A stretch of DNA of 39,023 nt, taken from the IMG/VR virus record IMGVR_UViG_3300022751_000011, positions 1 through 39,023 of that record, one strand, 5' to 3'. The position numbers and the translations under genes were made by a program. Origin of the DNA: a virus. The first letter of the stretch is position 1. The number at the start of each line of letters is the position of its first letter. Below are positions 1 through 27,513 of the stretch, piece after piece. Below the pieces are notes generated by a model, which ran no database searches, had not been told where the DNA came from, and saw only the letters and a program-made list of their open reading frames with translations.

Positions 1-110
1 CATAAATTTATTATCCATTTTCTGCCTCTAACTGTTTTAAATATAGTCTAACCTGCTCTCTAGGTAAATCAAGCGTGCAATGCTCTATGAAATACTTGCA
101 TAGTTCTATT
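1..110. repeat. Left copy of 110-bp exact terminal repeat
   Basis: Bases 1-110 are identical to 38914-39023. The repeat boundaries fall inside a small gene rather than between genes, and coding continues smoothly across the join. This is what a circular or circularly permuted genome gives when an assembler runs past its start. One copy should be removed, giving 38,913 bp. Confidence 0.95.
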
Positions 111-118
111 TGATTCAT
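11..118 (-). CDS. Hypothetical 35-aa protein at the contig join
   Basis: A 35-residue reading frame, rich in Leu, Glu and Gln (starts MNQIELCKYF, ends KQLEAENG). I recognise no domain. Its ATG overlaps the TGA of the 72-aa gene upstream (ATGA arrangement), and its last 8 bases overlap the ATG of the next gene, which starts at 38931 in the other copy of the terminal repeat. It is therefore a link in a tightly coupled leftward operon: Rep, 72 aa, this gene, a CxxC protein, DUF3310, 49 aa. The 3' part is duplicated at 38924-39023. Support comes from the coupling on both sides, not from homology. Confidence 0.6.
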   Translation of the reverse strand: MNQIELCKYFIEHCTLDLPREQVRLYLKQLEAENG

Positions 119-333
119 GCAAACCCCTTTAATAAATTTTTACATTCTTTTAAAGAGTTTTCAATTTTTGGAAAGCCAATTTTTGTCATGCCTAGCTCAT
201 AACAAAACTTTTGAAAACTTACGGCATTGAAAAATAAAATATTTCTTTTTAAACAATGTCCATATAAATAAATTAGTAATATTTTGCTTAGTAAACACAT
301 TTTTTTAACTAATTTTTGATGATAGGTATTCAT
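115..333 (-). CDS. Hypothetical 72-aa protein downstream of Rep
   Basis: A 72-residue basic, hydrophobic protein with several Cys and Lys. A weak hydrophobic stretch (about residues 14-25) could be a membrane segment or a buried helix. I do not recognise a family. The start ATG lies in an ATGA overlap with the stop of the Rep gene (330-333), and the stop overlaps the next start in the same way (115-118), so it is probably translated by coupling from the rep mRNA. Its position directly after an iteron-type initiator would suit a copy-number or partition accessory, but that is inference from context only. Confidence 0.65.
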   Translation of the reverse strand: MNTYHQKLVKKMCLLSKILLIYLYGHCLKRNILFFNAVSFQKFCYELGMTKIGFPKIENSLKECKNLLKGFA

Positions 334-1064
334 GCTATTCCCCTTAATTCTTTTTTACTTTTCCCAGTAACATAAAAATCAATAGCTACAACCTTGTTGC
401 TTTCTTTGATTAACTCAAATTTAATTTTTAAATCCGTTTTTAAATTAATTTCTTCAATGCGGGGCGTTAAAACTCTTCTATTAAACTCTCCAAAATTCTT
501 ATAACTATTTTTCTTTTCGCCAAACATTTTATATAAATATTCAAAACTTAATGTAACTTTTCTATTAGCAAAACTCTTGCACTTTAATAGCTCATAAATA
601 GGTATAGAGTGCATCAAGTCTAATCTTTCTACCATATTTAGGTCTAATTTTGTGTAGCCTTTAAGCGTGTTTTTAACGCCTTGTTCATTAACATAGTTTA
701 CATCTAATAAGTTTTTTAAAGATATATCCATATTTACTTTTGTGACTAATCTATTAATTTGCACGCTAGATAAATAACCAGTAGCCTCGTATTCCTCTAA
801 CTTTTCATTGTCTACCAACTCTAATAAATTAGTTAGCAAACCCTTAAATATTTTTTTTAATTCTTTATGAGAAAATTTACGATTATCTGCACCATATTTA
901 TTTAAATTAACATTACTAAAAAAAATAAAAGCTTTGTTCCAGCCATTTTTTTTAAATAAGTAAATAGTTTGATTAAATATCTTATGTTGAATATTGGTTA
1001 AATTGCTTTGTGATTGTATAGCTAAATTGCTTTTAAATATGCTATACTCTTCTTGAGTTGTCAT
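330..1064 (-). CDS. Rep_3-family plasmid replication initiator
   Basis: Initiator protein of 244 aa, the usual length for the Rep_3 (RepB/RepE-like) family, whose members bind iterons and recruit host DnaA and DnaB. Two winged-helix halves are visible. The C-terminal half (about residues 150-232) has the typical pattern: 'SIPIYELLKCKSF', a 'VTLSFEYLYKMFG' element, 'YKNFGEFNRRVL..RIEEIN', then 'VVAIDFYV'. The N-terminal half carries the Asn/Lys/Leu-rich helices of these proteins. The start has a modest Shine-Dalgarno (TAAGG). Upstream lie a promoter with an overlapping palindrome (1085-1131), which suggests autoregulation, and three 22-bp iterons (1447-1512), the expected binding sites. Downstream genes are coupled by ATGA overlaps. 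Finding a plasmid-type Rep beside a complete virion gene set is the main evidence for a phage-plasmid. Confidence 0.9.
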   Translation of the reverse strand: MTTQEEYSIFKSNLAIQSQSNLTNIQHKIFNQTIYLFKKNGWNKAFIFFSNVNLNKYGADNRKFSHKELKKIFKGLLTNLLELVDNEKLEEYEATGYLSSVQINRLVTKVNMDISLKNLLDVNYVNEQGVKNTLKGYTKLDLNMVERLDLMHSIPIYELLKCKSFANRKVTLSFEYLYKMFGEKKNSYKNFGEFNRRVLTPRIEEINLKTDLKIKFELIKESNKVVAIDFYVTGKSKKELRGIA

Positions 1065-1084
1065 TTTGAACCTTACGTCATTAA

Positions 1085-1131
1085 GGGGATTGATGATAAC
1101 TTATTATCCCCTATCTAAATAAAAAAATCAA
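1085..1131 (-). promoter_or_regulatory. Rep promoter with overlapping palindromic operator
   Basis: Read on the minus strand: -35 TTGATT (1126-1131), a 17-bp spacer, -10 GATAAT (1103-1108). A GGGGAT/ATCCCC inverted repeat (arms 1085-1090 and 1106-1111, 15-nt loop) overlaps the -10. A protein binding it would block transcription, as in autorepressed rep genes. Both boxes are near consensus. Binding by Rep is inference. Confidence 0.55.
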
Positions 1132-1256
1132 CATCTTTTCAATATACATTTACTAAATTTACAAATCAATATTAATTGATTAAAAATATCTTTTTGGATA
1201 CATTCTTTTTCTACAATAAAAAATTATTAAAATAGAAAATCTCTTTTTATGGGGGT

Positions 1257-1333
1257 GGCGTAGCCTCTTAAAAATGCTTGCTTTTTGTTGTAAAAAAACT
1301 ACGTAGCCTCGCACTTCAAGAACTGCGTAGCTT
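1257..1333. repeat. Three dispersed CGTAGC(C/T)T repeats
   Basis: GGCGTAGCCTC (1257-1267), ACGTAGCCTC (1301-1310) and GCGTAGCTT (1325-1333) lie upstream of the iterons in the same orientation. Spacing is irregular (about 43 and 24 bp), so they are not part of the 22-bp array. They may be accessory binding sites in the origin. Confidence 0.5.
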
Positions 1334-1446
1334 ACCCTTAAAAAGATTTCTTTTTTCTTATTTATCTTGTTTCTCTTATTTATCTAATTTGTACCCCTAA
1401 AAAATCGCTGAAATACCGCACCCATTAACAATAGTTAAAAAAAGCC

Positions 1447-1512
1447 TATGTACAAAAACGTACTTTGCTATGTACAAAAACGTACTTTGCTATGTACAAA
1501 AACGTACTTTGC
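1447..1512 (+). repeat. Three tandem perfect 22-bp iterons
   Basis: The unit TATGTACAAAAACGTACTTT followed by GC occurs three times without gap or mismatch at 1447-1468, 1469-1490 and 1491-1512. The 22-bp period is two helical turns, which places every site on the same DNA face, as in Rep_3-type plasmid origins. Each unit contains two GTAC cores 10 bp apart. The array lies about 380 bp upstream of the Rep gene, and an AT-rich tract follows on the right. Confidence 0.95.
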
Positions 1513-1560
1513 TACGGTATAAACATGTAACCGAACATGTAAAATATACATATAAATATA

Positions 1561-1637
1561 TTGACAAATAAAGTGTTTTATATAATAATAAATATACATA
1601 CACTAAGGTTGTTATATAAGCATGTTTATTGTATAAT
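1561..1637 (+). promoter_or_regulatory. Tandem rightward promoters for the replication operon
   Basis: Promoter a: TTGACA (1561-1566), 17 bp, AATAAT (1584-1589). Promoter b: TTGTTA (1609-1614), 17 bp, TATAAT (1632-1637). Promoter b ends 32 bp before the first start codon at 1670. Both lie in the AT-rich part of the origin, so transcription could also help to open the DNA. Confidence 0.6.
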
Positions 1638-1669
1638 TATTTTTCCTTTAAAAATTCTTGGAGTAAATA

Positions 1670-1837
1670 ATGGAAAATAATTTTACAGAAAAACTAAATA
1701 ATTTAAATCAAAATGATGAGATTTTTAAAAAATCATTTCTTGATATTATAGGCAATCTTGATGTTATTTTTGAGCATATTTATAATCTACAGGAGCAAAT
1801 AAATGAATTTAAGAGAAATGGCGGAGCAAAGACGTAA
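1670..1837 (+). CDS. Hypothetical 55-aa acidic helical protein
   Basis: A 55-residue protein starting MENNFTEKLNNLNQ, rich in Asn, Glu, Ile and Leu, probably one or two amphipathic helices that could form a coiled coil. I recognise no family. GGAG sits 7-8 bp before the ATG, and promoter b ends just upstream, so this is the first gene of the rightward replication operon. Its last 35 bp overlap the start of the next gene in another frame, and the GGAGCAAATAA of that gene lies inside this one, which implies coupled translation. Confidence 0.7.
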   Translation: MENNFTEKLNNLNQNDEIFKKSFLDIIGNLDVIFEHIYNLQEQINEFKRNGGAKT

Positions 1838-2426
1838 GCAGATTTATAGTGACTTACTAAAAAACAGGCATGAACATGATGCAATTTATATAAATACTCA
1901 TGCTTTAAGTGTTAAATTTAAAGTTAACACAAATGCTATAATTAACGATATTAAGTATTTATTAGACAAAAGCTTGATAACTCCTTATATTCCTCAGGCA
2001 AAAGTTTATAAAATCGTTAGAAAAAACTATTTAGTTGAAAATGATTTAAGTAATAATTTACCCGAGAATATTGTAGATAATCTAGAATTTACCGAACAAG
2101 AAAAATTATACTTAATCAAATTTGAACAACACAGAAAAAATATAAACAAGCCTTTAGATAGTCAAGGCTATGAAATGATGATAGCTAGAGCTAAATATTT
2201 GAAAAATATAGGAGAAAATATTATAGAAAGAATAGAATATTCAATTTCAGGCGGGTATCCTCAAATTTATGAGACAAAAAACAAGGTAAATAATAACAAT
2301 ACGTTGACTTTTAAAGAGAAAGACGAACAAAATAGAATAAATAAAATAGATAATGTTAGACAGTCTCAAGCAAATTGGTTTGATGACAATAATAAAAATA
2401 ATTTAAGGATACAAAATAATGAATAA
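1803..2426 (+). CDS. Phage replication-type protein with N-terminal winged helix
   Basis: A 207-aa protein. Residues about 8-72 form a winged-helix/HTH-like domain (QRRKQIYSDLLKN...INTHALSVKF...IINDIKYLLDKSLI...YKIV). Residues about 96-153 contain the pattern 'F...HRKNINKPL...GYEMMIARAKYL...G.NIIERIEYSISGGYPQIY', which resembles the C-terminal segment of many phage replisome-organiser proteins (HRK..KPLT...SI..GW..IF). The tail is Asn- and Lys-rich and probably disordered. A good RBS (AGGAG) precedes the ATG, and the stop overlaps the next start by 8 bp. The likely role is origin recognition or primosome loading together with the next gene. This rests on motif resemblance, not on a search. 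The N-terminal domain has a stand-alone paralogue at 3389-3601. Confidence 0.65.
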   Translation: MNLREMAEQRRKQIYSDLLKNRHEHDAIYINTHALSVKFKVNTNAIINDIKYLLDKSLITPYIPQAKVYKIVRKNYLVENDLSNNLPENIVDNLEFTEQEKLYLIKFEQHRKNINKPLDSQGYEMMIARAKYLKNIGENIIERIEYSISGGYPQIYETKNKVNNNNTLTFKEKDEQNRINKIDNVRQSQANWFDDNNKNNLRIQNNE

Positions 2427-3051
2427 TAATCAACAGCAAATTATTAATGATTTATTAAATGCGTGCTTTTTTTTGTTTGATAATGAAAGATTGCTTAAAG
2501 CGTGGAATTGCAAAGATGAAAAAGATTTTAAGGTAAATAAATTACCAATTTTAATGCATATGCTAAGTGTTAAAAATATTAATATTAAATATTTAGCTTT
2601 AGTTCCAGCTAGACTGGTAGAATTATCTTATGTTCCGCAAATGGCTGATATTATACGATTAGCCATACCTAAACATGATTATCAAGTGCTTTTTAACCAA
2701 ACACTGCTAGATTATCAAAAATATTTAGATTATTCAAATTCTCAAGAAATTACACAACATGTACTAAATGAGTTAAATAAAATATCTATATTATCTTATA
2801 ATGTCGCCTTAAATATGTTCAAGTTAAAAAGCATTAATATTTTATCTTGTTCTTATGATGATTGCAAACTATCATTCAAAGAAATTTTTGACAAAACAGA
2901 TAATTTGGATATTGATAAACTAGAGCCATTGCCTAAATTTTCATTAAAAATTGAAAAATCATTTACTCAAGATGATAAAAAAATAGCTCAAGAAAATTTA
3001 AAAAAAATAAAAGATATGCTGAAAGGTATTAATACATTTTCTTATAACTAA
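2419..3051 (+). CDS. Hypothetical 210-aa protein, possible helicase loader
   Basis: A largely alpha-helical 210-aa protein (MNNNQQQIINDLLNACFFLFDNERLLKAWNC), with no membrane segment and no Walker motif. It starts within the end of the preceding replication-type gene (8-bp overlap), and a strong terminator follows nine bases after its stop, so the two genes share a unit. In many temperate phages the second gene after an O-type organiser encodes a P-type loader that delivers the host DnaB helicase. The size, helical content and position would suit that, but I see no diagnostic motif, so the function is inferred from context alone. Confidence 0.55.
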   Translation: MNNNQQQIINDLLNACFFLFDNERLLKAWNCKDEKDFKVNKLPILMHMLSVKNINIKYLALVPARLVELSYVPQMADIIRLAIPKHDYQVLFNQTLLDYQKYLDYSNSQEITQHVLNELNKISILSYNVALNMFKLKSINILSCSYDDCKLSFKEIFDKTDNLDIDKLEPLPKFSLKIEKSFTQDDKKIAQENLKKIKDMLKGINTFSYN

Positions 3052-3059
3052 CCCAACCG

Positions 3060-3085
3060 CACCGCCTAAAAACGGTGTATTTTTT
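3060..3085 (+). terminator. Rho-independent terminator after the replication operon
   Basis: CACCG (3060-3064), 8-nt loop, CGGTG (3073-3077), then TATTTTTT. It ends the 1670-3051 unit. Confidence 0.8.
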
Positions 3086-3111
3086 CTCACTAAACCAAAG
3101 GAAATATAAAA

Positions 3112-3327
3112 ATGACTGATAACAACGATTTAAACGATTTCGTAATCGACACGATTGTAAAATCTCACAATGTAATTCAATCATGTAAATTTGTGATTGA
3201 TAGGATTAATGCCAAAACCAATAATAATCCTAGTGAAGAACAAAAGAAAACTATTGCAGAAATGGAAAAGCATATTGCAACTGCCGAACAACAGATTGAT
3301 AAATTGACGGGCGAGAAGTCTAACTAA
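3112..3327 (+). CDS. Hypothetical 71-aa acidic protein
   Basis: A 71-residue soluble protein, helical and charged (ends KHIATAEQQIDKLTGEKSN), probably with a short coiled coil in the last 30 residues. A good Shine-Dalgarno (AAAGGAAA) lies 7-8 bp before the ATG. It stands alone between the replication-operon terminator and the palindromic leader of the small HTH gene, with no strong promoter of its own visible, so it may depend on read-through. No family recognised. Confidence 0.7.
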   Translation: MTDNNDLNDFVIDTIVKSHNVIQSCKFVIDRINAKTNNNPSEEQKKTIAEMEKHIATAEQQIDKLTGEKSN

Positions 3328-3388: not shown

Positions 3389-3601
3389 ATGTACCTAGAC
3401 ACACAAACCCGCAGAAAACACCTAAAAGAATATCTAATCAAAAACCAGTTAGAACACAGCCTTGTACACATCAATTATGGCAAAATATGCGATGATTTAA
3501 ACATGGTTAGACCTACACTATCTAATGACATTAAACACTTGCTGGCTACTAACTTTTTAGAAAGTTTTTGCCTAGACGGTAGTATTTATAGGATTAAATA
3601 A
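3389..3601 (+). CDS. Small winged-helix/HTH protein, paralogue of the replication-protein N-terminus
   Basis: A 70-aa protein that is essentially one winged-helix domain. By eye it aligns end to end with residues 8-72 of the protein encoded at 1803-2426: RRK, L-I/L-KN, EH, IN, a turn with V, NDIK-LL, L, then Y-I at the end. It could regulate the replication operon by competing for the same DNA sites, or act as a separate repressor. A palindrome just upstream (3343-3383) is a candidate autoregulatory site. The start is supported by AAGGA 6 bp upstream. The DNA-binding role is inferred from the fold pattern; no catalytic residues are expected. Confidence 0.7.
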   Translation: MYLDTQTRRKHLKEYLIKNQLEHSLVHINYGKICDDLNMVRPTLSNDIKHLLATNFLESFCLDGSIYRIK

Positions 3602-4178: not shown

Positions 4179-4208
4179 AACCCACTCATTGTGGGTTATT
4201 CTTTATTT
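4179..4208. terminator. Terminator between convergent operons
   Basis: AACCCAC (4179-4185), loop TCATT, GTGGGTT (4191-4197), then ATTCTTTATTT on the plus strand. It sits at the end of the rightward 54-aa gene and at the stop of the leftward gene at 4203, so it can serve both directions. Confidence 0.65.
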
Positions 4209-4394
4209 ATCCAAATATTGACACAATGTTAAAAATATAGCTAACAAACTAGCTAATATTCCAGAAGCGGATATTAAACCCATTAAACTATAATCGAGTT
4301 TCTCAAATATCCAAAAAGCAAATACTGAAACGCCTAACAAACTTGCAACAGTAACAAGTGCTATCAGTAAATTCAAGCCAAATATTAGCAGCAT
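4203..4394 (-). CDS. Small two-pass membrane protein (63 aa)
   Basis: A 63-residue hydrophobic protein with two predicted transmembrane helices (about residues 5-28 and 38-58) joined by a short charged turn (EKLDYS). It is last in a leftward three-gene operon headed by a winged-helix regulator. Its N-terminus (MLLIFGLNLLI) resembles that of the upstream neighbour (MLTMFFMNLLI), and the two may be old duplicates. The AAAGGATTAATATG initiation site overlaps the 3' end of the preceding gene. A holin-like, exclusion or toxin-like role is possible, but no motif decides. Confidence 0.65.
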   Translation of the reverse strand: MLLIFGLNLLIALVTVASLLGVSVFAFWIFEKLDYSLMGLISASGILASLLAIFLTLCQYLDK

Positions 4395-4395
4395 A

Positions 4396-4656
4396 TTAAT
4401 CCTTTGTTATAATCTGAACCTGAAAAAAGTTGCTATTTGTTAGGGCTTTAAATCTCTCGTTCTCTTTAGATTGAATTCTTGTTACCAAAATGGCGACTAA
4501 CACACATAAGAATAAAAGAACTGCTGAGAAAGCAATTAAAGTACCAAACCTATAATATAACCACTGTCCAAGCCAGATGATAAAGCCCAAAGAGGCTGTT
4601 ATAACTATAATACTAGTCACAACTATGAGCAAATTCATAAAAAACATTGTTAACAT
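4396..4656 (-). CDS. Small two-pass membrane protein (86 aa)
   Basis: An 86-residue protein with two transmembrane helices (about residues 5-30 and 38-60) and a charged cytoplasmic-type tail (RIQSKENERFKALT). It lies one base upstream of the related 63-aa membrane gene and one base downstream of the HTH gene, in the same direction. The tail ends QVQIITKD, echoing the HTH protein's end QYQIIKKD; both 3' ends contain the AAAGGAT Shine-Dalgarno of the next gene. No family recognised. Confidence 0.65.
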   Translation of the reverse strand: MLTMFFMNLLIVVTSIIVITASLGFIIWLGQWLYYRFGTLIAFSAVLLFLCVLVAILVTRIQSKENERFKALTNSNFFQVQIITKD

Positions 4657-4657
4657 A

Positions 4658-4873
4658 TTAATCCTTTTTAATTATCTGATACTGCTCCACAATCCCAATT
4701 CTTTTTTTAGTTTTAATATAGCCTAGTAATTTTAATTTGGTTATAGCCCTATCAATCGTTGCCCTTGATACTTTCAAGATACTAGCCAATGTAGATTTAC
4801 TAGCTTTGTTATCGCTTTTTATTAGGTCTAATACCTGAATTAATAAATCATCATTAATATATAACTTTTTCAT
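4658..4873 (-). CDS. Winged-helix transcriptional regulator (71 aa)
   Basis: A 71-aa DNA-binding protein. Residues about 9-55 show a helix-turn-helix of winged type: 'LLIQVLDLIKSDNKASKSTLASILKVSRATIDRAITKLKLLGYIK', with the recognition helix around SRATIDRAITKL, then a short wing. It is transcribed leftwards from a promoter at 4901-4929 and faces the rightward early promoter at 4937-4965, which carries a palindrome (TGTACAGTGTACA). A TGTACA also spans its own start codon. This geometry suggests it represses the early promoter and perhaps itself, like a Cro- or CI-type switch protein or a plasmid regulator. The fold is well supported; the target is inferred. Confidence 0.8.
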   Translation of the reverse strand: MKKLYINDDLLIQVLDLIKSDNKASKSTLASILKVSRATIDRAITKLKLLGYIKTKKRIGIVEQYQIIKKD

Positions 4874-6815: not shown

Positions 6816-7490
6816 ATGGGAATAGCAACAATGATTTTAGGCGATAGTGGTACTGGCAAAAGTACCAGCTTAAGGAATTTAAATCCTAGTAATACTTTAC
6901 TAATTCAAGCTTTAAAAAAGCCACTACCCTTTAAAGCAAAGGGCTGGTCTTTGTGTAATAAAGAAAACCCCGAGGGGACTATTCTAGTAACTGATAAATC
7001 TAGTTCAATTACTACAGCAATTCAGAGAACTAATAAAGAAATAATTATTATAGATGATTTTCAGTATATTTTAGCTAATGAATTTATGCGGAGAGTTTTA
7101 GATAAAGAAAGCGGTAATCAATCATTTCAAAAATATAATGAAATTGCAAAAAGTGCATGGGATATATTAAATTCTTGTTCTCAAGCAGAAAATAAAAGAA
7201 TATATATTTTATCTCATACTCAAACTGATGATTTTGGCAAAGTTAAAATAAAAACTCTAGGTAAATTACTAGATGAAAAAATTGTTTTAGAGGGAATGGT
7301 AACAATAGTCTTAAGAACGAGTATAGAAAATAATAATTATTATTTCTCTACTAAAAATAATAATTATGATACTGTAAAAAGTCCTATAGATATGTTCCAA
7401 GAAGCTAAAATAGAAAATGACCTATTAGCGGTAGATAAAGCAATCTGTGAGTATTACGATATTCAGCAAACCCAGCCAATAACGGCTTAA
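6816..7490 (+). CDS. Sak4-like AAA ATPase (phage ssDNA-annealing recombinase)
   Basis: A 224-aa P-loop ATPase of the AAA_24 type. Walker A is GDSGTGKST (residues 9-17) right at the N-terminus; Walker B is IIIIDDFQ (residues 76-83). A later 'YILSHTQTDDFG' resembles the sensor region. This short RecA-core architecture is typical of Sak4-like proteins, which anneal or exchange single strands with the help of an SSB. The next gene encodes an SSB-like protein with the acidic tip, and a Gp157-type gene follows, the usual neighbourhood of this recombination cassette. AAAGGAG precedes the ATG. Likely role: recombination-dependent replication, repair, or circularisation of the genome. Confidence 0.85.
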   Translation: MGIATMILGDSGTGKSTSLRNLNPSNTLLIQALKKPLPFKAKGWSLCNKENPEGTILVTDKSSSITTAIQRTNKEIIIIDDFQYILANEFMRRVLDKESGNQSFQKYNEIAKSAWDILNSCSQAENKRIYILSHTQTDDFGKVKIKTLGKLLDEKIVLEGMVTIVLRTSIENNNYYFSTKNNNYDTVKSPIDMFQEAKIENDLLAVDKAICEYYDIQQTQPITA

Positions 7491-7504
7491 CTAAGGATAG
7501 AAAA

Positions 7505-8107
7505 ATGATATTTAATGTAAATGAAAAGAATTTAAATAATTCAATTGAAAAATTGCCACAAGCTGGAGTTTTCATTATTAATGAGGCAGAAGTCAAAAAG
7601 TTTGATAGTGGTTCAGTAGTGCTTAACTTTACTGCCACTAATCAAGAAACAAAAGAAGAAGTTAAATTTCAAATGTTCGTAATTGGTAAAGACGGCAAAG
7701 AAACATTTCAAAAACGCAATTTAGATAAAATAGCTTATTGTGCTGGAATTACTGGAGATTTACACACGGGGAAAGGTAAAGACGGCAAAGAAATTTTAGC
7801 TGGGCTACATAACAAATTATTAGGTTTAATGCTTAATTTGAAAGATGAAGCAGATAGAGAGGATACACAAAAAACATATACTAAATATGAATTTTTTGAA
7901 GCATTTTGCCCTAAAACAAAACGGTTAAGCAGTGAAATAAAAGACAATAAAGAAGCCAATTTATATGATAGTTTTGTAGAAAAATTAACACATAAAAAAA
8001 TAAATGGACACAGCAGAACTAATACTTATAGCCAAGTATCACAAAAAGAATTACAAAATTCTACTGCTGGAATGCCTGCTTTTGATGATGACGATTTTCC
8101 ATTTTAA
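7505..8107 (+). CDS. SSB-like protein (DUF669-like) with acidic C-terminal tip
   Basis: A 200-aa protein placed 15 bp after the Sak4-like gene. The core (residues about 20-110) looks OB-fold-like and resembles DUF669 proteins that accompany AAA_24 recombinases: 'GVFIINEAEVKKF..GSVVLNFTATNQETKEEVKFQMFVIGKDGKE'. The last residues, AFDDDDFPF, match the conserved acidic SSB tip (DDDIPF in bacteria) through which SSB recruits partner enzymes. A Ser/Thr/Asn-rich linker joins the two. Likely role: coats ssDNA and loads or stimulates the recombinase. The tip is strong evidence; the exact family should be confirmed by profile search. Confidence 0.8.
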   Translation: MIFNVNEKNLNNSIEKLPQAGVFIINEAEVKKFDSGSVVLNFTATNQETKEEVKFQMFVIGKDGKETFQKRNLDKIAYCAGITGDLHTGKGKDGKEILAGLHNKLLGLMLNLKDEADREDTQKTYTKYEFFEAFCPKTKRLSSEIKDNKEANLYDSFVEKLTHKKINGHSRTNTYSQVSQKELQNSTAGMPAFDDDDFPF

Positions 8108-8152
8108 ATAATCAACACAGCCATTTAATTATGGCTTATCTAGGATAAAATA

Positions 8153-8644
8153 ATGCAACTATATAAAATCGCTCCTGCAATAGCTGAAATTGCAAATAAT
8201 GATGAATTAACAATTGAACAAAAGCTAGAACAAATAAATTCTTTAGAGTTAATTTTAACTGATAAAATAGATAATATTTGCGCTTATGTTTACGAACAAA
8301 ACAAGCATTTAGAAAGCATTAAAAATGCTATTAAAGAACAACAGGAAGCATTAAAGCAAGCCCAAGCTAAAAACGATAGTTTAGAAACCTACGCATTAGA
8401 AATAATGCAACTTAATCATATTACAGAAATCAAAAGCAAATTTTTTGCTAAGCTTAAAATTATAAATAATGGCGGTGCTATTCCTGTAATTATTAATGAT
8501 GTAGATATTGAAACAATACCTCAAGAATTTGTTAAAATTACTAAAGATTTTAATAAAACAGAAATTAAAGACGCTTTGGAAGCTGGCGAAGTGCTAGAAT
8601 GGGCTAAGTTTGGCGAACGAAAGCAAAGAATTACATATAAATAA
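8153..8644 (+). CDS. Gp157-family (Sipho_Gp157-like) protein
   Basis: A 163-aa protein of the Siphovirus Gp157 type: an N-terminal 'LYKIAPAIAEI' helix, a long coiled coil (residues about 20-90, with 'TDKIDNICAYVYEQNKHLESIKNAIKEQQEALKQAQ'), then a small beta domain with 'IPQEFVKIT...NKTEIKDALEAGEVLEWAKF', which fits the family end 'IP..f......K..ik..lk.G..v.ga'. These genes usually sit beside phage recombination genes; their function is not settled, and a claimed link to phage resistance is weak. A good GGATAAAATA start region and a strong terminator right after the stop make it the last gene of the recombination unit. Confidence 0.8.
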   Translation: MQLYKIAPAIAEIANNDELTIEQKLEQINSLELILTDKIDNICAYVYEQNKHLESIKNAIKEQQEALKQAQAKNDSLETYALEIMQLNHITEIKSKFFAKLKIINNGGAIPVIINDVDIETIPQEFVKITKDFNKTEIKDALEAGEVLEWAKFGERKQRITYK

Positions 8645-12537: not shown

Positions 12538-13227
12538 TTAGTGGAGTTTTAGGCGGTACTTTGTTTCAAAGATTTTAGTTAGCTTAGCTTTGCGTTCGTC
12601 ATATTCTAAACCCTCCTCTAAATAGCTTGCATTCATTCTTTGAAGTTTTAAAATTAAATCAATTTGTACAGGCATTAAATAATCACGCAAATTTGCATTT
12701 TTAGGTATATTATTCTTTTCTCTATATTTTTTAGTTTCCATTCCTAGAACTAATTTATTAATTAGCTTAAACTCATTCATAAAATGGCGTGCTTCCGCAA
12801 TTTTCCCTTTACACATCTGAAAATCTTTTATTGCATCTGTCATATATGGATTTTCTAACTTTAAATCCTGTCTTAATTTTTCCTGCTTAGTCTTTTCTTT
12901 TAATAATTTTTCACAATTTATAAAATATAATCTTGCTTTTTTGCCTTGTTCGTTATTTTCTAACATGGCTAATTGTTTTGCCATTTCAATGCTAACCATA
13001 TAATCTATAAAATTAGTTTTATTTCCTTGAGCTGTTAGCTTCGATTGACTAATAGCTATGTAGTCAATATTTAATAAAAAGTCATATTGCTTAATTTTAT
13101 AATTAATCCAATGTGTAAATTGTGTCTTTACTTCTAAAAATTTATGTAATTCTCTAGCTGAAACACTTTGTATAGTCTCATCATTTAATTTTGATAATTC
13201 CACTTTTATTAGTTCGTTTTTTGGCAT
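12538..13227 (-). CDS. AntA/AntB-domain antirepressor (229 aa)
   Basis: The N-terminal AntA/AntB domain is clear (residues about 18-105): 'SVSARELHKFLEVKTQFTHWINYKIKQYDFLLNIDYIAIS' and 'FIDYMVSIEMAKQLAMLENNEQGKKARLYFINCEKLL'. The C-terminal half is charged and helical, unlike the common KilA or ANT C-termini that I know. Antirepressors of this class bind and neutralise a phage repressor to drive lytic growth. The gene has its own consensus promoter and tandem palindromes (13310-13401), a leader hairpin (13253-13294) and a terminator, so it is an independently controlled cistron in the middle of the late direction. AAGGAAAAG precedes the ATG. Its presence argues for a temperate lifestyle even without an integrase. 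Confidence 0.85.
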   Translation of the reverse strand: MPKNELIKVELSKLNDETIQSVSARELHKFLEVKTQFTHWINYKIKQYDFLLNIDYIAISQSKLTAQGNKTNFIDYMVSIEMAKQLAMLENNEQGKKARLYFINCEKLLKEKTKQEKLRQDLKLENPYMTDAIKDFQMCKGKIAEARHFMNEFKLINKLVLGMETKKYREKNNIPKNANLRDYLMPVQIDLILKLQRMNASYLEEGLEYDERKAKLTKIFETKYRLKLH

Positions 13228-13252
13228 TTACTTTTCCTTATAAAAAGTTTGG

Positions 13253-13294
13253 TGGGTAGGTCGCAAAGATAGTATAAGGCTACCTAACTACCCA
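13253..13294 (-). promoter_or_regulatory. Leader hairpin of the antirepressor mRNA
   Basis: TGGGTAG (13253-13259) pairs with CTACCCA (13288-13294), and TAGGT/ACCTA give an alternative register. It sits in the untranslated leader 25 bp before the antirepressor start codon. Antirepressor genes are often controlled after transcription (P22 ant by sar RNA), so this may matter, but function is unproven. Confidence 0.4.
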
Positions 13295-13309
13295 TTGAAG
13301 TTTAAAGCA

Positions 13310-13401
13310 GTTGCGACACTGCGTTTACAATCTTGTTGCGACACAAGATTAATCCTAACTTGGATTAATATAATTATAACATTTTTTCATTTATTTATCA
13401 A
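13310..13401 (-). promoter_or_regulatory. Antirepressor promoter with tandem palindromic operators
   Basis: Minus strand: -35 TTGATA (13396-13401), 17 bp, extended -10 TGTTATAAT (-10 hexamer 13373-13378). Just downstream of the start lie two inverted repeats with the same 6-bp centre spacing: TAATCC-TAACTT-GGATTA (13350-13367) and AATCTTGT-TGCGAC-ACAAGATT (13329-13350). A GTTGCGACAC direct repeat occurs at 13310-13319 and 13335-13344. This looks like a tightly repressed promoter. Confidence 0.7.
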
Positions 13402-13403
13402 AT

Positions 13404-13568
13404 TTAATCATTTACATACTCATCTATTTTTATGCCAACTGCACCTTCCCATAGCTGTACATGGGTATGGTCTATAGTAATATGGGTATGCGGGTGTAGA
13501 GTGTTTAAAAACTTAACTAATGGTTTAGCTAATTCCTCTAATTCTTTTTGTTGCTTTTCATTTAACAT
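13404..13568 (-). CDS. Hypothetical 54-aa protein
   Basis: A 54-residue protein starting MLNEKQQKELEELAKPLVKF, with a helical N-terminus and a His-rich beta end ('LHPHTHITIDHTHVQLWEG'). I recall short phage proteins of this plan (a '..LAxPLVKFLN...HPH..I.V....AELLEG' pattern) from several temperate phages near lysis or antirepressor genes, function unknown. AAAGGATAAAT lies before the ATG. The antirepressor promoter's -35 box lies directly beyond its stop. Confidence 0.75.
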   Translation of the reverse strand: MLNEKQQKELEELAKPLVKFLNTLHPHTHITIDHTHVQLWEGAVGIKIDEYVND

Positions 13569-13591
13569 ATTTATCCTTTATTTATCAATTT

Positions 13592-13771
13592 TTACATCAA
13601 TGTGCTTAAAAGCATTACACTATCTTGGTAGTCTAAAAGCATTTCATAATTTAAATGGCGATAGTAGTTTTTAATGCATTCAGGGCTTGAAAAATAGACA
13701 TGATGCCATATTTCCTGCATAGTGTCAGCGATAAAATCCTGTAGCTCATGTTCTTTTATCGCCTCATTCAT
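13592..13771 (-). CDS. Hypothetical 59-aa protein
   Basis: A 59-residue protein starting MNEAIKEHELQDFIADTMQEI, helical, with 'HHVYFSSPECIKNYYRHLNYEML' in the middle and a Met/Leu-rich end. The start lies within the end of a 24-aa membrane peptide (8-bp overlap) and lacks a strong Shine-Dalgarno, so it depends on coupling. No family recognised; the sequence looks like a genuine small protein. Confidence 0.6.
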   Translation of the reverse strand: MNEAIKEHELQDFIADTMQEIWHHVYFSSPECIKNYYRHLNYEMLLDYQDSVMLLSTLM

Positions 13772-13838
13772 TTTTAATATATGTTGTGTAAATAAGCGGT
13801 ATAAGCATTATTAGTATAACTAAAATATCTTTTATCAT
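13764..13838 (-). CDS. 24-aa membrane peptide coupled to the endolysin
   Basis: The peptide has one transmembrane segment (residues about 5-18, ILVILIMLIPLIYT) and a polar end. Its ATG overlaps the endolysin's TGA (ATGA), and its own stop overlaps the next gene. No separate holin is evident beside the endolysin, so this peptide or the 125-aa protein at 12016 may help membrane permeabilisation, though it is far shorter than known holins. Confidence 0.45.
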   Translation of the reverse strand: MIKDILVILIMLIPLIYTTYIKNE

Positions 13839-14281
13839 TTTAAAATAATCCCATTATAATACTTGCCTTTACGCATAGTTAAAACTTGCATTCTAGGCTT
13901 TTTATCTAGCTCATTTAAACCCCAATGTACCCAAGTACCCTCATAAATAAGCTGGTCATAAATTAATTTTGTATCTAAATGTAATCTAAAGGCTATATCG
14001 TATGGACTGCCAAAGCTAGGACATACAAAATCACACGCCAACGCCTTTAAATGATAGCTTGTTCTACTTCCGCCCACTGCTTTATTTACTGCCGGGCTTC
14101 TGTACATAGAATTTACTACTATGATTTTATTACCTAGAATTGAGCGCACTTGTTCCATTAACATAGCCATGCGATTAGCATTGGACATTAGATTATTGGG
14201 TATAGAATTATCCAAGCCTAATCGTTCCGCACGTTCTGAGCGGGTAAATTCTGCTAGTGTGAAATGTGGGGATAGGTTCAT
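13835..14281 (-). CDS. Endolysin, peptidase M15A-type
   Basis: A 148-aa zinc peptidase of the M15_3 family (D-Ala-type peptidase acting on peptidoglycan cross-links). It begins 'LSPHFTLAEFTRSERA', the usual N-terminus of these phage and phage-derived enzymes. The zinc ligands are visible: His77 and Asp84 in 'SYHLKALACDF' and His119 in 'TWVHWGL'; Arg61 in 'SMYRSPAVN' is the conserved substrate-side Arg. There is no signal peptide or extra binding domain, so it needs a holin for export. The gene overlaps its upstream neighbour (ATGA) and a membrane peptide downstream. Function is well supported. Confidence 0.9.
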   Translation of the reverse strand: MNLSPHFTLAEFTRSERAERLGLDNSIPNNLMSNANRMAMLMEQVRSILGNKIIVVNSMYRSPAVNKAVGGSRTSYHLKALACDFVCPSFGSPYDIAFRLHLDTKLIYDQLIYEGTWVHWGLNELDKKPRMQVLTMRKGKYYNGIILK

Positions 14282-16205: not shown

Positions 16206-17957
16206 TTATGCTACCATACTTTGATTAAATATTCTATCATTCACTGCTGGTTTTAACATACTAATACGCCACCATGCATTACCAGTGGTTCTATATATCC
16301 AACATGCACTTTGTCCAGATAGTAAATTATTAGCAACATTATTAAATATTGTAGCTCCACCGTCTGCACTGCTTGCTGTTAGTGCTGTAACTGTGCTTCT
16401 ACCACTTACACACACTTCTTGACTATTAATTGGTGTTGTTGGTAATCCTACGCCATAAGTTGCTAAGGCTGTACCAGTATTTAATAATAATCTAACTTTT
16501 GATGCTAGTTGAGTAATTGCCGTGCTTCCGCCGTCTACTGCTGACACTGCCTGTAAATCAGTTACATCAACATATTTACCACCTTGAGTGGTTAGACTAA
16601 CATTTGTGTCGCCTGCAAAGTTATATGTATTCCCAGCACCTACACTTAAAATCTTACTTGGCGAACTATTACCAAAACGTAAACGCCCAATACTTAAATC
16701 TGAACGCTGATAAATAGACATTAAGCCGTCATCATTCGCTGATATATCCCAAGCTGTAACATCGCCATTGCTGGCATCTCTAACTTGAAATCTATTGCTA
16801 GTAGCATTGGCTTGTATATGCCAATCATTATTACTTGTTCTTAAATAGTGGTCTGCGTTACCGCTTGCTGGGTCTTGCTCGATAGCATTCCCTTTAAAGC
16901 TAACTAAACCGTCTGCACTTAAGGCATTAATTTCTACATTAGGCTCAAATCCGCTATTATCTAATTTCCTAGACATTAAGCGTAATTGCCCATCTCTATT
17001 ATCATTAGTTAAGCTATTATTTCCGCTTACTATTTCAATTTTAGCTTTACCATTTGAAAGGGCATTAGCTGTACCAGTATTTAAATTAGTTGCTAATAAT
17101 TCCACGCCTTGACTAATAAAATCAGAAGCTCCGCCTACAGGTGCGGCGACATTTTTTATAACTAATGAATGATTACCTAAGCTTGTTGTATTTACATTGG
17201 TTTCTAAATATCCTATTGGCTGATTATTATTTAAGCCTGTAGAAAGAACGGAAAAGCTACTACTTCTATATGGGTCTAAATTTGTAAATATACTTGAATT
17301 TGTAACTCTAAACGGCATTACTCCGCTTGCTGTTGTAGTATCAAAAGTATACGCACCCGCTCCTGTATCGCCATTTTTTGATAATCCGCCTGCACCGCCT
17401 GATAAATTAAACTGCGTACCGTCATAAATTATTTGATAAAATCTACCGTTTTGGAATGTACCAGCAGTTAAAGCTAAGCCATTATTTAGCACAGCTTTTG
17501 CACCAATGCCATTTATATTAATGGTAACTGCACCAGTATTTGCCCCTACCGCTTTAAAATTAAATATCTGCCCATTTGCGTAAGCTGTTAAATTAGTTAA
17601 AGTAGCAGTTATAGTATCAACCCCGCTTACACTGGTTAGCAATGTTAAACTGCTGTCTTGTATTTGACCTACATTAACACTATGATTTCTTAATGTACCA
17701 TTGCCTAAGTTTTTAAGTACATACCCACCCATAGCCAAATTACCAGTAGCAGGACTTTGTCCGTCTCTTGAGATGCTACCAGTTAATGCACTGGCTACAT
17801 CGCTTAAAGTTCCATTAGCCCATGAACTGCTAATTGTAGTTCCACTTTGAACAGGGTTGCCCGCTGGTAAATTATAATTGCCGTTGCCGTCTCTGGCACT
17901 ATTAGCAATGCTAGTTACCGCTAATAATGTTAATAATAAATATCTAATAAATTTCAT
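16206..17957 (-). CDS. Tail fibre/receptor-binding protein with N-terminal signal-like sequence
   Basis: A 583-aa protein, Gly/Asn/Thr/Ser-rich with a beta-helix-like character throughout. The N-terminus (MKFIRYLLLTLLAVTSIANSA) looks like a cleavable signal peptide, followed by 'NGNYNLPAGNPVQSGTTISSSWANGTLSDVASALTGSISRDGQ', an N-terminal pattern that recurs in tail fibre proteins of many proteobacterial phages. A 'NHSVNVGQIQDSS' motif and repeated 'SVSGVDTITATLTNLTAYANGQIFNFKAVGANTGAVTININGIGAKA' fibre segment follow. The C-terminus ends 'CWIYRTTGNAWWRISML'. Likely function: host recognition at the tail tip. The signal-like N-terminus is odd for a protein assembled in the cytoplasm. AAAGGAAAAT precedes the ATG. 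Confidence 0.8.
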   Translation of the reverse strand: MKFIRYLLLTLLAVTSIANSARDGNGNYNLPAGNPVQSGTTISSSWANGTLSDVASALTGSISRDGQSPATGNLAMGGYVLKNLGNGTLRNHSVNVGQIQDSSLTLLTSVSGVDTITATLTNLTAYANGQIFNFKAVGANTGAVTININGIGAKAVLNNGLALTAGTFQNGRFYQIIYDGTQFNLSGGAGGLSKNGDTGAGAYTFDTTTASGVMPFRVTNSSIFTNLDPYRSSSFSVLSTGLNNNQPIGYLETNVNTTSLGNHSLVIKNVAAPVGGASDFISQGVELLATNLNTGTANALSNGKAKIEIVSGNNSLTNDNRDGQLRLMSRKLDNSGFEPNVEINALSADGLVSFKGNAIEQDPASGNADHYLRTSNNDWHIQANATSNRFQVRDASNGDVTAWDISANDDGLMSIYQRSDLSIGRLRFGNSSPSKILSVGAGNTYNFAGDTNVSLTTQGGKYVDVTDLQAVSAVDGGSTAITQLASKVRLLLNTGTALATYGVGLPTTPINSQEVCVSGRSTVTALTASSADGGATIFNNVANNLLSGQSACWIYRTTGNAWWRISMLKPAVNDRIFNQSMVA

Positions 17958-17965
17958 ATTTTCCT

Positions 17966-18895
17966 TTAATTGTAATAAACATCTGCATAAATTGTATTTG
18001 TTGGTGCGTTTGTATCAGTATCAATATAATTTAATGTCGCCGCCATACTAATAGCTGTTGTAAAATTATGCTGTATCATTATGTTTACTGGTATAAAAAT
18101 ACTGCCTGTTGCTGGCACTATAATTTTTTTTGCTACTGCACTTGTACCAACGGTAACATTAGTATTTAAAAGATTGTAAAATTTAACGTACGCAACTGTT
18201 GCTGATTGGTTTACAAAGTTAAAGCCAAAAAGTTGACCGCTAGTTGCTTTTACTGAAACCGCTGTATTAGTTAAAGCTAAGCTTTGATGTTGAGTAACTG
18301 GGAATATACTTTTTTGAATACTAACCAACATTTTACCATTTACATCACTTTGTGCTGCAATTGTTTGTTGGTCGGCTAATGTAATACTTGCTGAGCTGTA
18401 AACTACCCCGCCAACTATTGTATTTACTGGGGCGGAGGCCTTGGCTACTGTACCCAATGCAGTACTTGTATTCGTTGCAATTGTACTTAAAGAAGCATTT
18501 GCAGTTGTCTGATTAGCTGATGTCGCAAGCCCTGTAGTATTAGTTACTATACTAGCTAAACTTGTATTTCCAATATCCTGCTTGGCTGGCGTTGCAAAAG
18601 TTCCGTCATTTGTAACCGTACTGCTTCCACCGCTTGCACTGCCTCCTATATATGTAATATTGCCCGCTAATACTTCACTATCTTGCAACAATGTACCTTG
18701 CGTTAAATTAACGTAATACACGCCAAGTAGCGTTGCCTTGCTTTCAGTTTGACTTGATTTACTCAAATCTACTGCTATTTTTTTCTCTAAAACATCGTTT
18801 AAAACTCCGCCTGTAAAAGCACTACTTACAATATAGTAACCTACTGTGCTTTCTATTCCTTGCGGAATTGGTTTATTGAATACTGGGTCGCTCAT
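17966..18895 (-). CDS. Structural protein, probably tail/fibre-associated (309 aa)
   Basis: A 309-residue Thr/Ser/Ala-rich protein. Residues about 95-150 contain short repeats of the type 'T-P-A-K-Q-D-I-G-N-T-S-L-A-S-I-V-T-N-T-T' and 'TSANQTTANASLSTIATNTSTAL', which suggests a trimeric helical or coiled segment; the rest is beta-rich. No enzymatic motif. It lies between the large internal virion protein gene and the tail fibre gene in one late operon, so a tail-needle, fibre-base or head-surface role is plausible. No family recognised with confidence. Confidence 0.65.
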   Translation of the reverse strand: MSDPVFNKPIPQGIESTVGYYIVSSAFTGGVLNDVLEKKIAVDLSKSSQTESKATLLGVYYVNLTQGTLLQDSEVLAGNITYIGGSASGGSSTVTNDGTFATPAKQDIGNTSLASIVTNTTGLATSANQTTANASLSTIATNTSTALGTVAKASAPVNTIVGGVVYSSASITLADQQTIAAQSDVNGKMLVSIQKSIFPVTQHQSLALTNTAVSVKATSGQLFGFNFVNQSATVAYVKFYNLLNTNVTVGTSAVAKKIIVPATGSIFIPVNIMIQHNFTTAISMAATLNYIDTDTNAPTNTIYADVYYN

Positions 18896-18898
18896 AAT

Positions 18899-20728
18899 CT
18901 ACCTTTGGTTTTGAATGAATTGTAATTCTTCTTTGGTTAAGTTTTTAGGTGCTTCTACTTCTATAGGGTCTAATTGGTCGGCATTCATATAATTTATTAA
19001 TGCTTGGGATAATTGACTGCCCATAAATGGCTGACTAGCCCCTAAAGTATCGTATGCTCTTTGTCCGCCTGATGTTAATTGTTGTGCTAATACATCTTTA
19101 TTTAGTAAATATTCTATAGATTGTTTAGCTTTTGAATTATCCGCTATCCTATCTATAACCCTGCCCGCCCAATTAGGCAATAAATTACCTACTCCGCTAT
19201 TTTGTACATTAAAATCAGTTTGCGAACCTGTAGCACCTACATTATTATTTAGCACTGTTTCACGCTTTAAATCTTGCTGTATTGGATTAAAACTATTCTC
19301 TAATGTATTTTGACTAGGCGGGTATTTATCATTTAAAAGGCGGGCTAAAGTAGAATTATATTGCCCATAAGTTAGCTTAGGGTTGCCTTGTGCGTCTAAA
19401 TTTTTAGTATCTAAATCGTAGTTTATACCGCCGTTCGGATTGGTTTTATATCCTAATAGTTGATATGCACTTTCAGCATCTGTTATAGGTTGGCTGTTAG
19501 CTCTATATTGTGCTTTAGCTTCCTTATATGCTGGGTCTAAATCATCTATTGTAGTGTCAAATAAATTAGCTTCTTTACCAAAAATGCGGGCTTCATCAGG
19601 CGTGATATTTAAATTAGGGCTAGTTTTTGAGTTTAAGCCTGTAGAAATAAGCCTAACTGCCTGCGGATTTAATTTATTATCTTGAACTGCATTTAATCTA
19701 TCTAATGGATTAATATTGGCGTTAAAGTCTCTTTGTGCTAAGCCTAGTTCTGATTGAGTATAAGGCTGGTCTAATGCGTATTTAATTTCATCAGTCAAAG
19801 GTACGGGCTTTAATTGGCTATAGGTATTTTGTGCTTCATTGGCTCTAAAATTCCTTAAAGCGTCTAAATCCTGCGGACTGCCACCAGCCTCTCTTAATGA
19901 ATTAACCCTAGCAAAATTATTATCAGACTGCCTAACAGCTAAAGGAAAATCGCCTTGTATATTTGCACCTTTATTTTTAAGTCTATTGTACTGTCCTATA
20001 TTGGCAGGCGTTGGTACAATTTCCGTTACTGTTGGATTGCTACCCTCAACTAAAGTGTGATTTTTCCTTAACAAATTAGCTAGTTCGGAATTTTGCATAT
20101 TAGAGTTTCTAGCTATTTCATTAGCTGTACTAGCCTTTTTACCAATACCTAAAGAACCGCCAATCTTTGCAACTGCTGGTAATGCTCCGCCCAATACTCC
20201 GCCTGCTATAGCGTTAGTTTGTCTAGCTCCTGCATGGTCTGTATTATCATATATAGGTTGTGCTAATCCTTGAGCTGCCCCAATAGCTCCGCCTTTTAAA
20301 ATGTTAGCTAAAGTGCTTGTTCCGCCTGCTAATTTAGCTGGTAGAATTTGAGGTGCTAATAAAGCAGTTCCAATACCGCCAGCTACTTGCCCTACACTGC
20401 CTGCAATACTTCCTTTGGTTGTATCTTTGTAATATTGATTTATCTTATTTGCTACCTTATCGACGCTTGAGCCTAAATCAGTATTAAAAGCATAATCTAT
20501 TCCGTCGCTTGCTAATTGAGTTAAGCCAACAGGAATATCAACTGCACTTTTAATTACTCCTGCTCCAAAATCTGATAGACCTTGATTAACGGCTTTTTTA
20601 GCATTTTGAATTGTGTTAGTAAAAGTATTATTAGCATCAGATTGCTTGGCTTGCTTTTGCTCTTTTAATTTAGTTTCTTTATCAATATCTCTTAATAGGG
20701 CTAGAGTTTCATCGTCTAATTCGTTCAT
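18899..20728 (-). CDS. Internal virion/DNA ejection protein (609 aa)
   Basis: A 609-residue protein. The first third has an acidic helical start, then long Gly/Ala-rich amphipathic stretches (residues about 50-200: 'GLSDFGAGVIKSAVDIPVGLTQLA', 'GSIAGSVGQVAGGIGTALLAP', 'AIAGGVLGGALPAVAKIGGSLGIG') of the kind seen in podovirus ejection proteins that cross the membrane. The remainder is Asn/Gln-rich and helical. Position after the connector and other internal proteins supports an ejectosome role like P22 gp16/gp20. It overlaps the upstream gene by ATGA. No lytic transglycosylase motif seen. Confidence 0.7.
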   Translation of the reverse strand: MNELDDETLALLRDIDKETKLKEQKQAKQSDANNTFTNTIQNAKKAVNQGLSDFGAGVIKSAVDIPVGLTQLASDGIDYAFNTDLGSSVDKVANKINQYYKDTTKGSIAGSVGQVAGGIGTALLAPQILPAKLAGGTSTLANILKGGAIGAAQGLAQPIYDNTDHAGARQTNAIAGGVLGGALPAVAKIGGSLGIGKKASTANEIARNSNMQNSELANLLRKNHTLVEGSNPTVTEIVPTPANIGQYNRLKNKGANIQGDFPLAVRQSDNNFARVNSLREAGGSPQDLDALRNFRANEAQNTYSQLKPVPLTDEIKYALDQPYTQSELGLAQRDFNANINPLDRLNAVQDNKLNPQAVRLISTGLNSKTSPNLNITPDEARIFGKEANLFDTTIDDLDPAYKEAKAQYRANSQPITDAESAYQLLGYKTNPNGGINYDLDTKNLDAQGNPKLTYGQYNSTLARLLNDKYPPSQNTLENSFNPIQQDLKRETVLNNNVGATGSQTDFNVQNSGVGNLLPNWAGRVIDRIADNSKAKQSIEYLLNKDVLAQQLTSGGQRAYDTLGASQPFMGSQLSQALINYMNADQLDPIEVEAPKNLTKEELQFIQNQR

Positions 20729-22548: not shown

Positions 22549-22551
22549 TAT

Positions 22552-23481
22552 TTAACCTCCAAAAAGTTTAGCAAATGTACCCACTGGTGAACCTAGAGCC
22601 GCCGAACCTAAGCCAAATACTCCGCCCAATAAAGAATTACCACCTGCAACATCTGCGTTATATCCCGCTAATTGGCTATTATATTGGTTTTGGAATAATT
22701 GGCTCATATCTGTTGGTTGAACATTTTGTATAGGTTGGTTAGCAAATTGTGGTGTCTGAACCTGTGAACCGCTGGCAAGTGCCGTATATTGGTTTAAGGC
22801 TTGATTATTGCCAGCAAAACGTTTGTTTAATTCTGCACTTATAGCATTGTTATATGCTTGTTGTTCCTGTCCGCTTTGGTTAAATAATTGGTTTTCATAT
22901 TGAATACCGCCTAAAATACTGTCATTTCTAGCATTACCATATGCATAATCTTTCTGCCTAGCAAAATTATTCATTTCTCTATCATAAGCTTCACTACCTA
23001 TATTTATACCTTGATTAGCCAATCTTGTATTTAAAGCATCTTGGTTCTGCTGATATTGCGGGTCTAATAGTGCAGTTTGTTTACCATAAATAGCGTCTTG
23101 GGCTTTTTTAGACAATTCAGCATTACCACCAGTATTTAAACTAGTTTGATAATTTAAATCACTGGTATTTATTGGATTAGATAAACTGCTTTCCGCATTC
23201 TTTAAAAATTTATTAGCAGTAACTGAAGTATCATATTGATTTTGTATATTTTGGTCTACAGTTCTTTGAGCTGTTGGCGATAAGTCTATAAATTCATTAT
23301 AAAGAGGCGCTCCTGTTGTAGGGTCGTATCCATACTGTTCATATGTTTGTGAGCCATATGGTGTATATGTATTTGAACGCATAGCAGCATTGTATGCACT
23401 AGCCTCTTTTTGTTGCTGTGTATTAGCTCCAGCAACTACATATGGGTCTGGTGCTTGTGGTGCTTGTGATGATTTACCCAT
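22552..23481 (-). CDS. Internal virion/ejection protein (309 aa)
   Basis: A 309-residue Gln/Asn/Tyr-rich protein. It starts MGKSSQAPQAPDPYVVAGANTQQQKEASAYNAAM and has 'YTPYGSQTYEQYG..PTTGAP', an N-terminal pattern that recurs in podovirus virion proteins following the stabilisation gene. The C-terminus is Gly-rich and hydrophobic ('GGNSLLGGVFGLGSAALGSPVGTFAKLFGG'), which may insert into membrane. The next genes are the two large ejection-type proteins. Comparable in place to P22 gp7, though sequence similarity to gp7 cannot be judged here. Confidence 0.7.
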   Translation of the reverse strand: MGKSSQAPQAPDPYVVAGANTQQQKEASAYNAAMRSNTYTPYGSQTYEQYGYDPTTGAPLYNEFIDLSPTAQRTVDQNIQNQYDTSVTANKFLKNAESSLSNPINTSDLNYQTSLNTGGNAELSKKAQDAIYGKQTALLDPQYQQNQDALNTRLANQGINIGSEAYDREMNNFARQKDYAYGNARNDSILGGIQYENQLFNQSGQEQQAYNNAISAELNKRFAGNNQALNQYTALASGSQVQTPQFANQPIQNVQPTDMSQLFQNQYNSQLAGYNADVAGGNSLLGGVFGLGSAALGSPVGTFAKLFGG

Positions 23482-23482
23482 T

Positions 23483-23968: not shown

Positions 23969-23971
23969 TAG

Positions 23972-27468: not shown

Positions 27469-27487
27469 ATTTATTATTCCTTTGTTA

Positions 27488-27508
27488 AAGTGGTCTAGTA
27501 GACCACTT
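27488..27508 (-). terminator. Perfect hairpin after the capsid-decoration genes
   Basis: AAGTGGTCT-AGT-AGACCACTT, a perfect 9-bp stem with 3-nt loop, 6 bp after the stop of the 274-aa gene. On the minus strand only TTTAAC follows, so it is more likely a partial terminator or an mRNA-end stabiliser that keeps capsid mRNA high relative to downstream genes. Confidence 0.6.
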
Positions 27509-27513
27509 ATCGT

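Follow-up and report, generated by a model that had tools for sequence, protein, structure and literature searches.

A Rep_3 and iteron replicon in an apparently exchangeable cassette of short-tailed-type phages that may persist as plasmids

Most of the phage-plasmids that have been studied closely are long-tailed and carry partition genes. P1-like phages, for example, are ~90 kb in size and combine a contractile tail with ParAB, Cre, and an addiction module, and the cluster A mycobacteriophages are long-tailed actinophages. In extrachromosomal members of this cluster (such as Miko, Rachaly, and Lokk), the integration cassette is replaced by parABS/RepA plasmid maintenance (Wetzel et al. 2020, PMC7157519). 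RepA is rare among these extrachromosomal phages, no repeat motifs have been identified for it, and parB diversification in the cluster has been proposed to avoid incompatibility; Lokk and BobSwaget, the one pair reported, share 97% ANI and carry a different replication gene (PMC7157519). P1-like phage-plasmids fall into two Inc types, IncY and p0111, and exchange of their rep/par genes with plasmids is frequent, which may serve to escape incompatibility; exchange of replication functions between phage-plasmids and plasmids is known from gene-sharing statistics (Pfeifer and Rocha 2024, PMC10879196). IMG/VR was searched for phage-plasmid-like elements in a survey of 2026 (PMC13221032).

Here, we studied a stretch of 39,023 nucleotides, IMG/VR record IMGVR_UViG_3300022751_000011 (hereafter the window), together with two related contigs: G001 (IMGVR_UViG_3300022930_000015, 40,467 bp), found by a scan with the head protein, and G031 (IMGVR_UViG_3300022751_000027, 39,837 bp), found by a scan with the Rep of G001. 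As in the extrachromosomal cluster A mycobacteriophages, plasmid-type functions occur in a phage of apparently temperate lineage, and near-identical genomes differ in their replication gene; unlike those phages, the window has no ParA, its Rep_3 initiator is accompanied by clear iterons, and whole replicons, iterons included, differ between relatives. The state that we propose would resemble that of P1-like phages in being a plasmid prophage driven by an iteron-type initiator, whereas the present group is of short-tailed type, measures ~39-40 kb, and has no partition or recombinase gene that we could find. Lambdoid O/P-ori modules are also exchangeable initiator-plus-iteron units in mosaic phages, but Rep_3 proteins are not O-like initiators, and neither an integrase nor a cI-type repressor was found in the window. 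Our search of the open-access literature turned up no account of podovirus phage-plasmids that carry Rep_3 and have exchanged their iterons. Our best explanation as a whole, to which we assign a probability of about 0.62, is that the Rep_3/iteron unit serves as an origin, that it maintains the prophage as a plasmid, and that it resides in a cassette exchanged among related phages.

Initiator, iterons, and adjoining signals

The replicon comprises the following features.

330-1064, minus strand: Rep_3 replication initiator of 244 aa (Pfam and PHROG matches)
1084-1112, no strand: palindrome AGGGGAT-N15-ATCCCCT, over the promoter-like site of rep
1103-1131, minus strand: promoter-like site of rep, TTGATT-17-GATAAT, a weak -10/-35 match
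1446-1514, no strand: three perfect 22-bp iterons, CTATGTACAAAAACGTACTTTG (TRF)
1515-1668, no strand: AT-rich tract, candidate unwinding region (80% A+T)
1561-1589, plus strand: promoter-like site TTGACA-17-AATAAT before the rightward cassette genes (11/12 matches)

Both domains of a Rep_3 initiator pass their curated Pfam cut-offs in the product of 330-1064, Rep3_C clearly (PF21205, E 1.5e-14, 54.4 bits against a cut-off of 21.1) and Rep3_N narrowly (PF01051, E 9.7e-5, 23.2 bits against 22.4), and the protein also matches PHROG 4402, “replication initiation protein” (E 7e-20). An earlier reading made from the letters of the window (the sequence-only reading) had proposed such an initiator here, with a profile search as the check and the lack of a Rep_3 hit as its point of failure; the search was positive for both families. 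Matches to Rep_3 occur in 817 plasmids and in 0 phage records. Relatives of the window Rep itself were absent from the phage records and, by exact peptide patterns, from viral contigs. AlphaFold single-sequence models of the Rep and of a 210-aa ORF nearby had a mean pLDDT of 45 and 40, respectively, and were not used.

The other elements that the sequence-only reading had assembled into a replicon are also present. Tandem Repeats Finder (TRF) reports 3.1 copies of the 22-bp unit, 100% identical, with a score of 138; when the entire window was dinucleotide-shuffled 60 times, the highest score was 74. The array lies 382 bp upstream of the rep start, and direct repeats of about 17-22 bp near rep are what characterizes an iteron replicon. 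Adjoining it, the tract at 1515-1668 has 80% A+T against 67% for the window. The palindrome at 1084-1112 is real as a repeat (such a repeat arose in just 12 of 2000 shuffles of the leader), and we regard it as a candidate autoregulation operator of rep. Promoter-like sites, including those at 1103-1131 and 1561-1589, are no more numerous in the region than expected by chance, and there was no credible Rfam match to a regulatory RNA in the leader within 1-3100. Detrended GC skew reaches its minimum for the window at 1515, by the iterons, and gene orientation diverges near the same position; because the skew minimum coincides with the change of coding strand, the two facts are not independent. 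The slot in which the replicon lies (see below) contains no strict DnaA box, a point against our best explanation, and only a one-mismatch site at 2072; a DnaA box is dispensable for some iteron-regulated theta replicons.

A further clue to what the repeats are comes from plasmids. Among 72,556 plasmids, only pLmYK1 of Ligilactobacillus murinus has a DNA match to the window iterons (84% over 63 bases; E 8e-6, 8-kb query), and the match falls on the array of 21-bp iterons that the plasmid carries next to its Rep_3 gene. The two units agree at 18/21 positions, a level reached in 0 of 300 shuffles. Like the window, pLmYK1 thus combines Rep_3 domains with perfect 21-bp direct repeats beside rep, and the common core of the repeats is ATGTACAAAAAC; unlike the window, it has no virion genes annotated in the stretch examined. 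The two Rep proteins give no BLASTP alignment, and the Reps of Rep_3 iteron plasmids generally (for example pLmYK1 and the Acinetobacter RepM plasmids) are at most ~30% identical to the window Rep or cannot be aligned to it by BLASTP. An iteron match without a Rep alignment speaks for the repeats being iterons, but gives no support to a recent transfer.

The Rep_3 gene and its iterons are almost certainly the replication origin of this phage. Rep would bind the three iterons at 1446-1514 and open the adjacent AT-rich tract, host replication enzymes would then be loaded, perhaps with help from the cassette's own 207- and 210-aa proteins, and theta replication would start near 1515. The palindrome over the rep promoter might let Rep limit its own synthesis.

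Genome map and virion genes

Outside the replicon, the following features define the map.

1-110, no strand: terminal direct repeat, identical to 38914-39023
38914-39023, no strand: second copy of the terminal direct repeat
6816-8644, plus strand: early genes for an AAA_24 ATPase (PF13479), a 200-aa ORF without an accepted Pfam match, and a Gp157-type protein (PF05565)
12538-13227, minus strand: AntA/AntB antirepressor (PF08346, 7.6e-23)
13835-14281, minus strand: endolysin, peptidase M15 (PF08291, PHROG 894)
28348-29325, minus strand: major head protein (PHROG 9953, 4e-76)
30692-33004, minus strand: portal protein (PHROG 12082, 2.6e-174)
33001-34416, minus strand: large terminase (position/gene order and a weak PHROG match)
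34417-35013, minus strand: small terminase (PF20901, 6.8e-32; PHROG 1482)

The exact 110-bp terminal repeat yields a unit of 38,913 bp, and genes cross the join. The ends of G001 and G031 also overlap, by 136 and 144 bp at 98.5-99.3% identity and at other map positions, so that all three maps are circular or circularly permuted. Such ends speak for completeness and not for plasmid life, since headful-packaged phages assemble likewise.

The terminase, portal, capsid, and endolysin of the sequence-only reading are borne out, with profile matches for the small terminase, portal, major head protein, and M15 endolysin and with gene order and a weak PHROG match for the large terminase, whereas its “scaffold,” “ejection proteins,” and “fibre” are assigned by position and size alone. 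The relatives of the portal and the gene order fit a podovirus (short-tailed) type, and no tape-measure or sheath family was matched in the ORFs scanned. Among the head genes lies an ORF at 23972-24421 (minus strand) that has no Pfam match here; the Bradyrhizobium and Rhizobium phage relatives annotate an acetyltransferase at this place of their virion modules.

The window, G001, and G031 each carry a Rep_3/iteron unit and virion/packaging genes on one molecule. This bears on a claim of the sequence-only reading, that replicon and virion genes belong to the same genome, and on the outcome named against it, that the two parts come from different molecules; the terminal repeat and the same linkage in two independent contigs uphold the claim. 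The related concern that an assembler joined plasmid replicons to phage contigs arises because all three are metagenome contigs with sharp slot borders. We reject it as highly improbable, given that the slot lies inside a map closed by an exact 110-bp repeat, that Rep_3 and iterons occupy the same slot independently in three contigs, that a gene overlap (ATGA) is preserved at the border, and that G001 and G031 have a Rep C-terminus in common within the slot.

The replicon slot in three phages

Comparison of the three phages places the replicon in a discrete segment.

115-333, minus strand: 72-aa ORF, conserved as the rep-side flank of the slot; in each of the three phages its start codon and the stop of rep overlap (ATGA)
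334-3073, no strand: exchangeable replicon slot, without DNA homology to the slots of G001 and G031
1670-1837, plus strand: 55-aa cassette ORF
1803-2426, plus strand: 207-aa cassette ORF, no credible family match
2419-3051, plus strand: 210-aa cassette ORF, no family assigned; a DnaB-type helicase stands in its place in G001
3112-3327, plus strand: 71-aa ORF, conserved as the flank opposite the rep side

G001 is a close sister of the window phage (head protein 98% and portal 100% identical; 95.2% DNA identity over 29,170 bp of the window), and 0 bp of it match the window at 334-3073, the largest unmatched segment between the two; smaller mosaic differences are also present, for instance at 12540-13991. 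In its slot, G001 has a different Rep_3 protein of 502 aa (PF01051 5.9e-6, PF21205 8.9e-7), 4.9 perfect copies of a 22-bp iteron, TAGTTTTTTTAGGTATGCAAAG, and a DnaB_C helicase. G031 has a different virion: only 6 bp match across 16206-35589 of the window, and its coat and portal are P22-type (PF11651 4e-89, PF16510 7e-140), as in P22-like podoviruses. The slot flanks of G031 are nevertheless 98% and 93% identical to those of the window, and between them stands a third Rep_3 of 524 aa with 3.7 perfect copies of a 21-bp iteron, GTACAAATTTACAGACAATGA. On the rep side, homology returns at the ATG of the 72-aa ORF, with the 4-bp ATGA overlap with the rep stop in 3/3 phages, and on the far side it returns just upstream of the 71-aa ORF. 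When the 72-aa flank ORF and a gene of the lysis region were used to look for further members, only G001 and G031 came up, and an exact scan of viral contigs for the window iterons gave no match.

By eye, the N-terminus of the 207-aa ORF resembles a 70-aa ORF at 3389-3601 and is helix-turn-helix-like, possibly reflecting a duplication across the slot boundary.

In each of the three slots, a distinct Rep is paired with a distinct set of iterons. Likeness among the three iterons is no better than that of shuffled units, and common descent of the iterons is for that reason not claimed. A finer comparison is possible between G001 and G031, in which the last 173 residues of Rep are 95% identical and the leader between iterons and rep (~400 bp) is ~80% identical, whereas the N-terminal halves of Rep have no BLAST match to each other. 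The DNA-binding half of Rep and the iterons thus differ together while leader and C-terminus are kept, the pattern that would be predicted if every Rep has to be matched to the iterons of its slot. Hybrids of this kind offer a way to map the part of Rep_3 that sets iteron specificity. The shared C-terminal 173 aa of these long Reps (G001, L012 8139-9647; G031, L188 7749-9323) have no Pfam match and are missing from the window Rep. In the leader of G001 (L012 ~7896-7925) and at the matching place in G031 (L188), we noted a short hairpin whose arms differ between the phages and by eye still appear to pair, possibly an attenuator or terminator of rep.

These comparisons suggest that a Rep_3/iteron cassette has been exchanged among near-identical or partly related phages, and we consider it very likely that a real origin lies in an exchangeable cassette. 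Replacement of the slot at 334-3073 by other Rep_3/iteron units would leave relatives with different incompatibility types, even among phages with nearly identical virions, and plasmid incompatibility may be the selective reason for the exchange. In all, a single slot of these ~40-kb short-tailed-type phages houses at least three distinct Rep_3/iteron replicons, on two virion backgrounds.

The joint difference of DNA-binding half and iterons also invites a reading in which the replicon is the immunity type itself, with a resident Rep/iteron system taking the place of a repressor and blocking superinfecting phages of the same iteron type. Exclusion would act through Rep/iteron copy control (handcuffing, titration), and a phage that exchanged DNA-binding half and iterons together would gain access to cells already occupied by a relative, which would favour such exchange. 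The lack of an HTH_3 (cI-type) repressor match in all three phages agrees with this. A repressor of another family could have escaped the search, however, and the winged-helix protein at 4658-4873 is a candidate. We find the idea doubtful; our confidence in it overlaps with that in the best explanation, as one extends the other.

Integration, partition, and the plasmid state

No tyrosine or serine recombinase was matched in the window, for which the sequence-only reading had noted the absence of an integrase, or in G001 and G031. A ParA-type ATPase (PF13614) was not found, and the ORFs scanned contain no partition or maintenance families. Rhizobium phage RHph_I3_18, Bradyrhizobium phage ppBjS10J-1, and Myxococcus phage Mx8 belong to the same portal family as the window at no more than 40% identity, and the relatives found when 84,980 species genomes were scanned with a portal profile, all at no more than 38%, are mostly proteobacterial prophages (mostly of Alpha- and Betaproteobacteria). 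RHph_I3_18 and ppBjS10J-1 resemble the window in the order of their head genes and, unlike it, have a tyrosine recombinase match (that of ppBjS10J-1 below the curated cut-off) and no Rep3_C. Among the records of 29 portal-family relatives, a tyrosine recombinase matched in 8/29, ppBjS10J-1 being one of the eight, and Rep3_C in 0/29, although absences among these records are weak evidence because several of them are fragments.

With no integrase, a plasmid replicating from this origin would be the simplest form of prophage upkeep, and a temperate lineage is suggested by the AntA antirepressor and by the relatives that have an integrase. The Rep_3/iteron unit would then keep the genome as a low-copy plasmid whenever lysis is not under way, in place of an integrase. 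The main competitor holds that the origin serves the lytic cycle only, as the lambdoid O protein and ori do, with no plasmid prophage stage; the phage would be virulent or lysogenize by other means, and the exchange of replicons would be ordinary lambdoid-type mosaicism. Lambdoid phages do exchange initiator-plus-iteron modules, the present genomes are mosaic in other segments too, and the circular maps fit headful DNA. Because neither a partition ATPase nor an HTH_3 repressor was found, a purely lytic use of the origin stays in consideration, and the missing integrase agrees with it as well. Set against this, Rep_3 is typical of plasmids, as its distribution over plasmid and phage records indicates, and the same antirepressor and relatives bespeak a temperate ancestry. 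On balance, we judge a lytic-only origin unlikely, if worth serious attention, and life as a plasmid prophage probable as the best reading. The candidate phage-plasmid of the sequence-only reading accordingly stands in part: the Rep_3/iteron replicon is linked to a podovirus-type genome, whereas a partition ATPase and a cI-type repressor were not found and the circular contigs fit headful DNA as well.

If these phages are plasmid prophages, they provide a natural test of whether incompatibility drives replicon exchange, an idea argued so far mainly from gene-sharing statistics (PMC10879196).

One further operon is kept in all three phages. At 4203-4873 of the window (minus strand; L012 4043-4689 and L188 3448-4085), a gene for a winged-helix protein is followed by genes for short membrane-type proteins, running opposite to the neighbouring early genes, and this could be a lysogeny or superinfection-exclusion operon.
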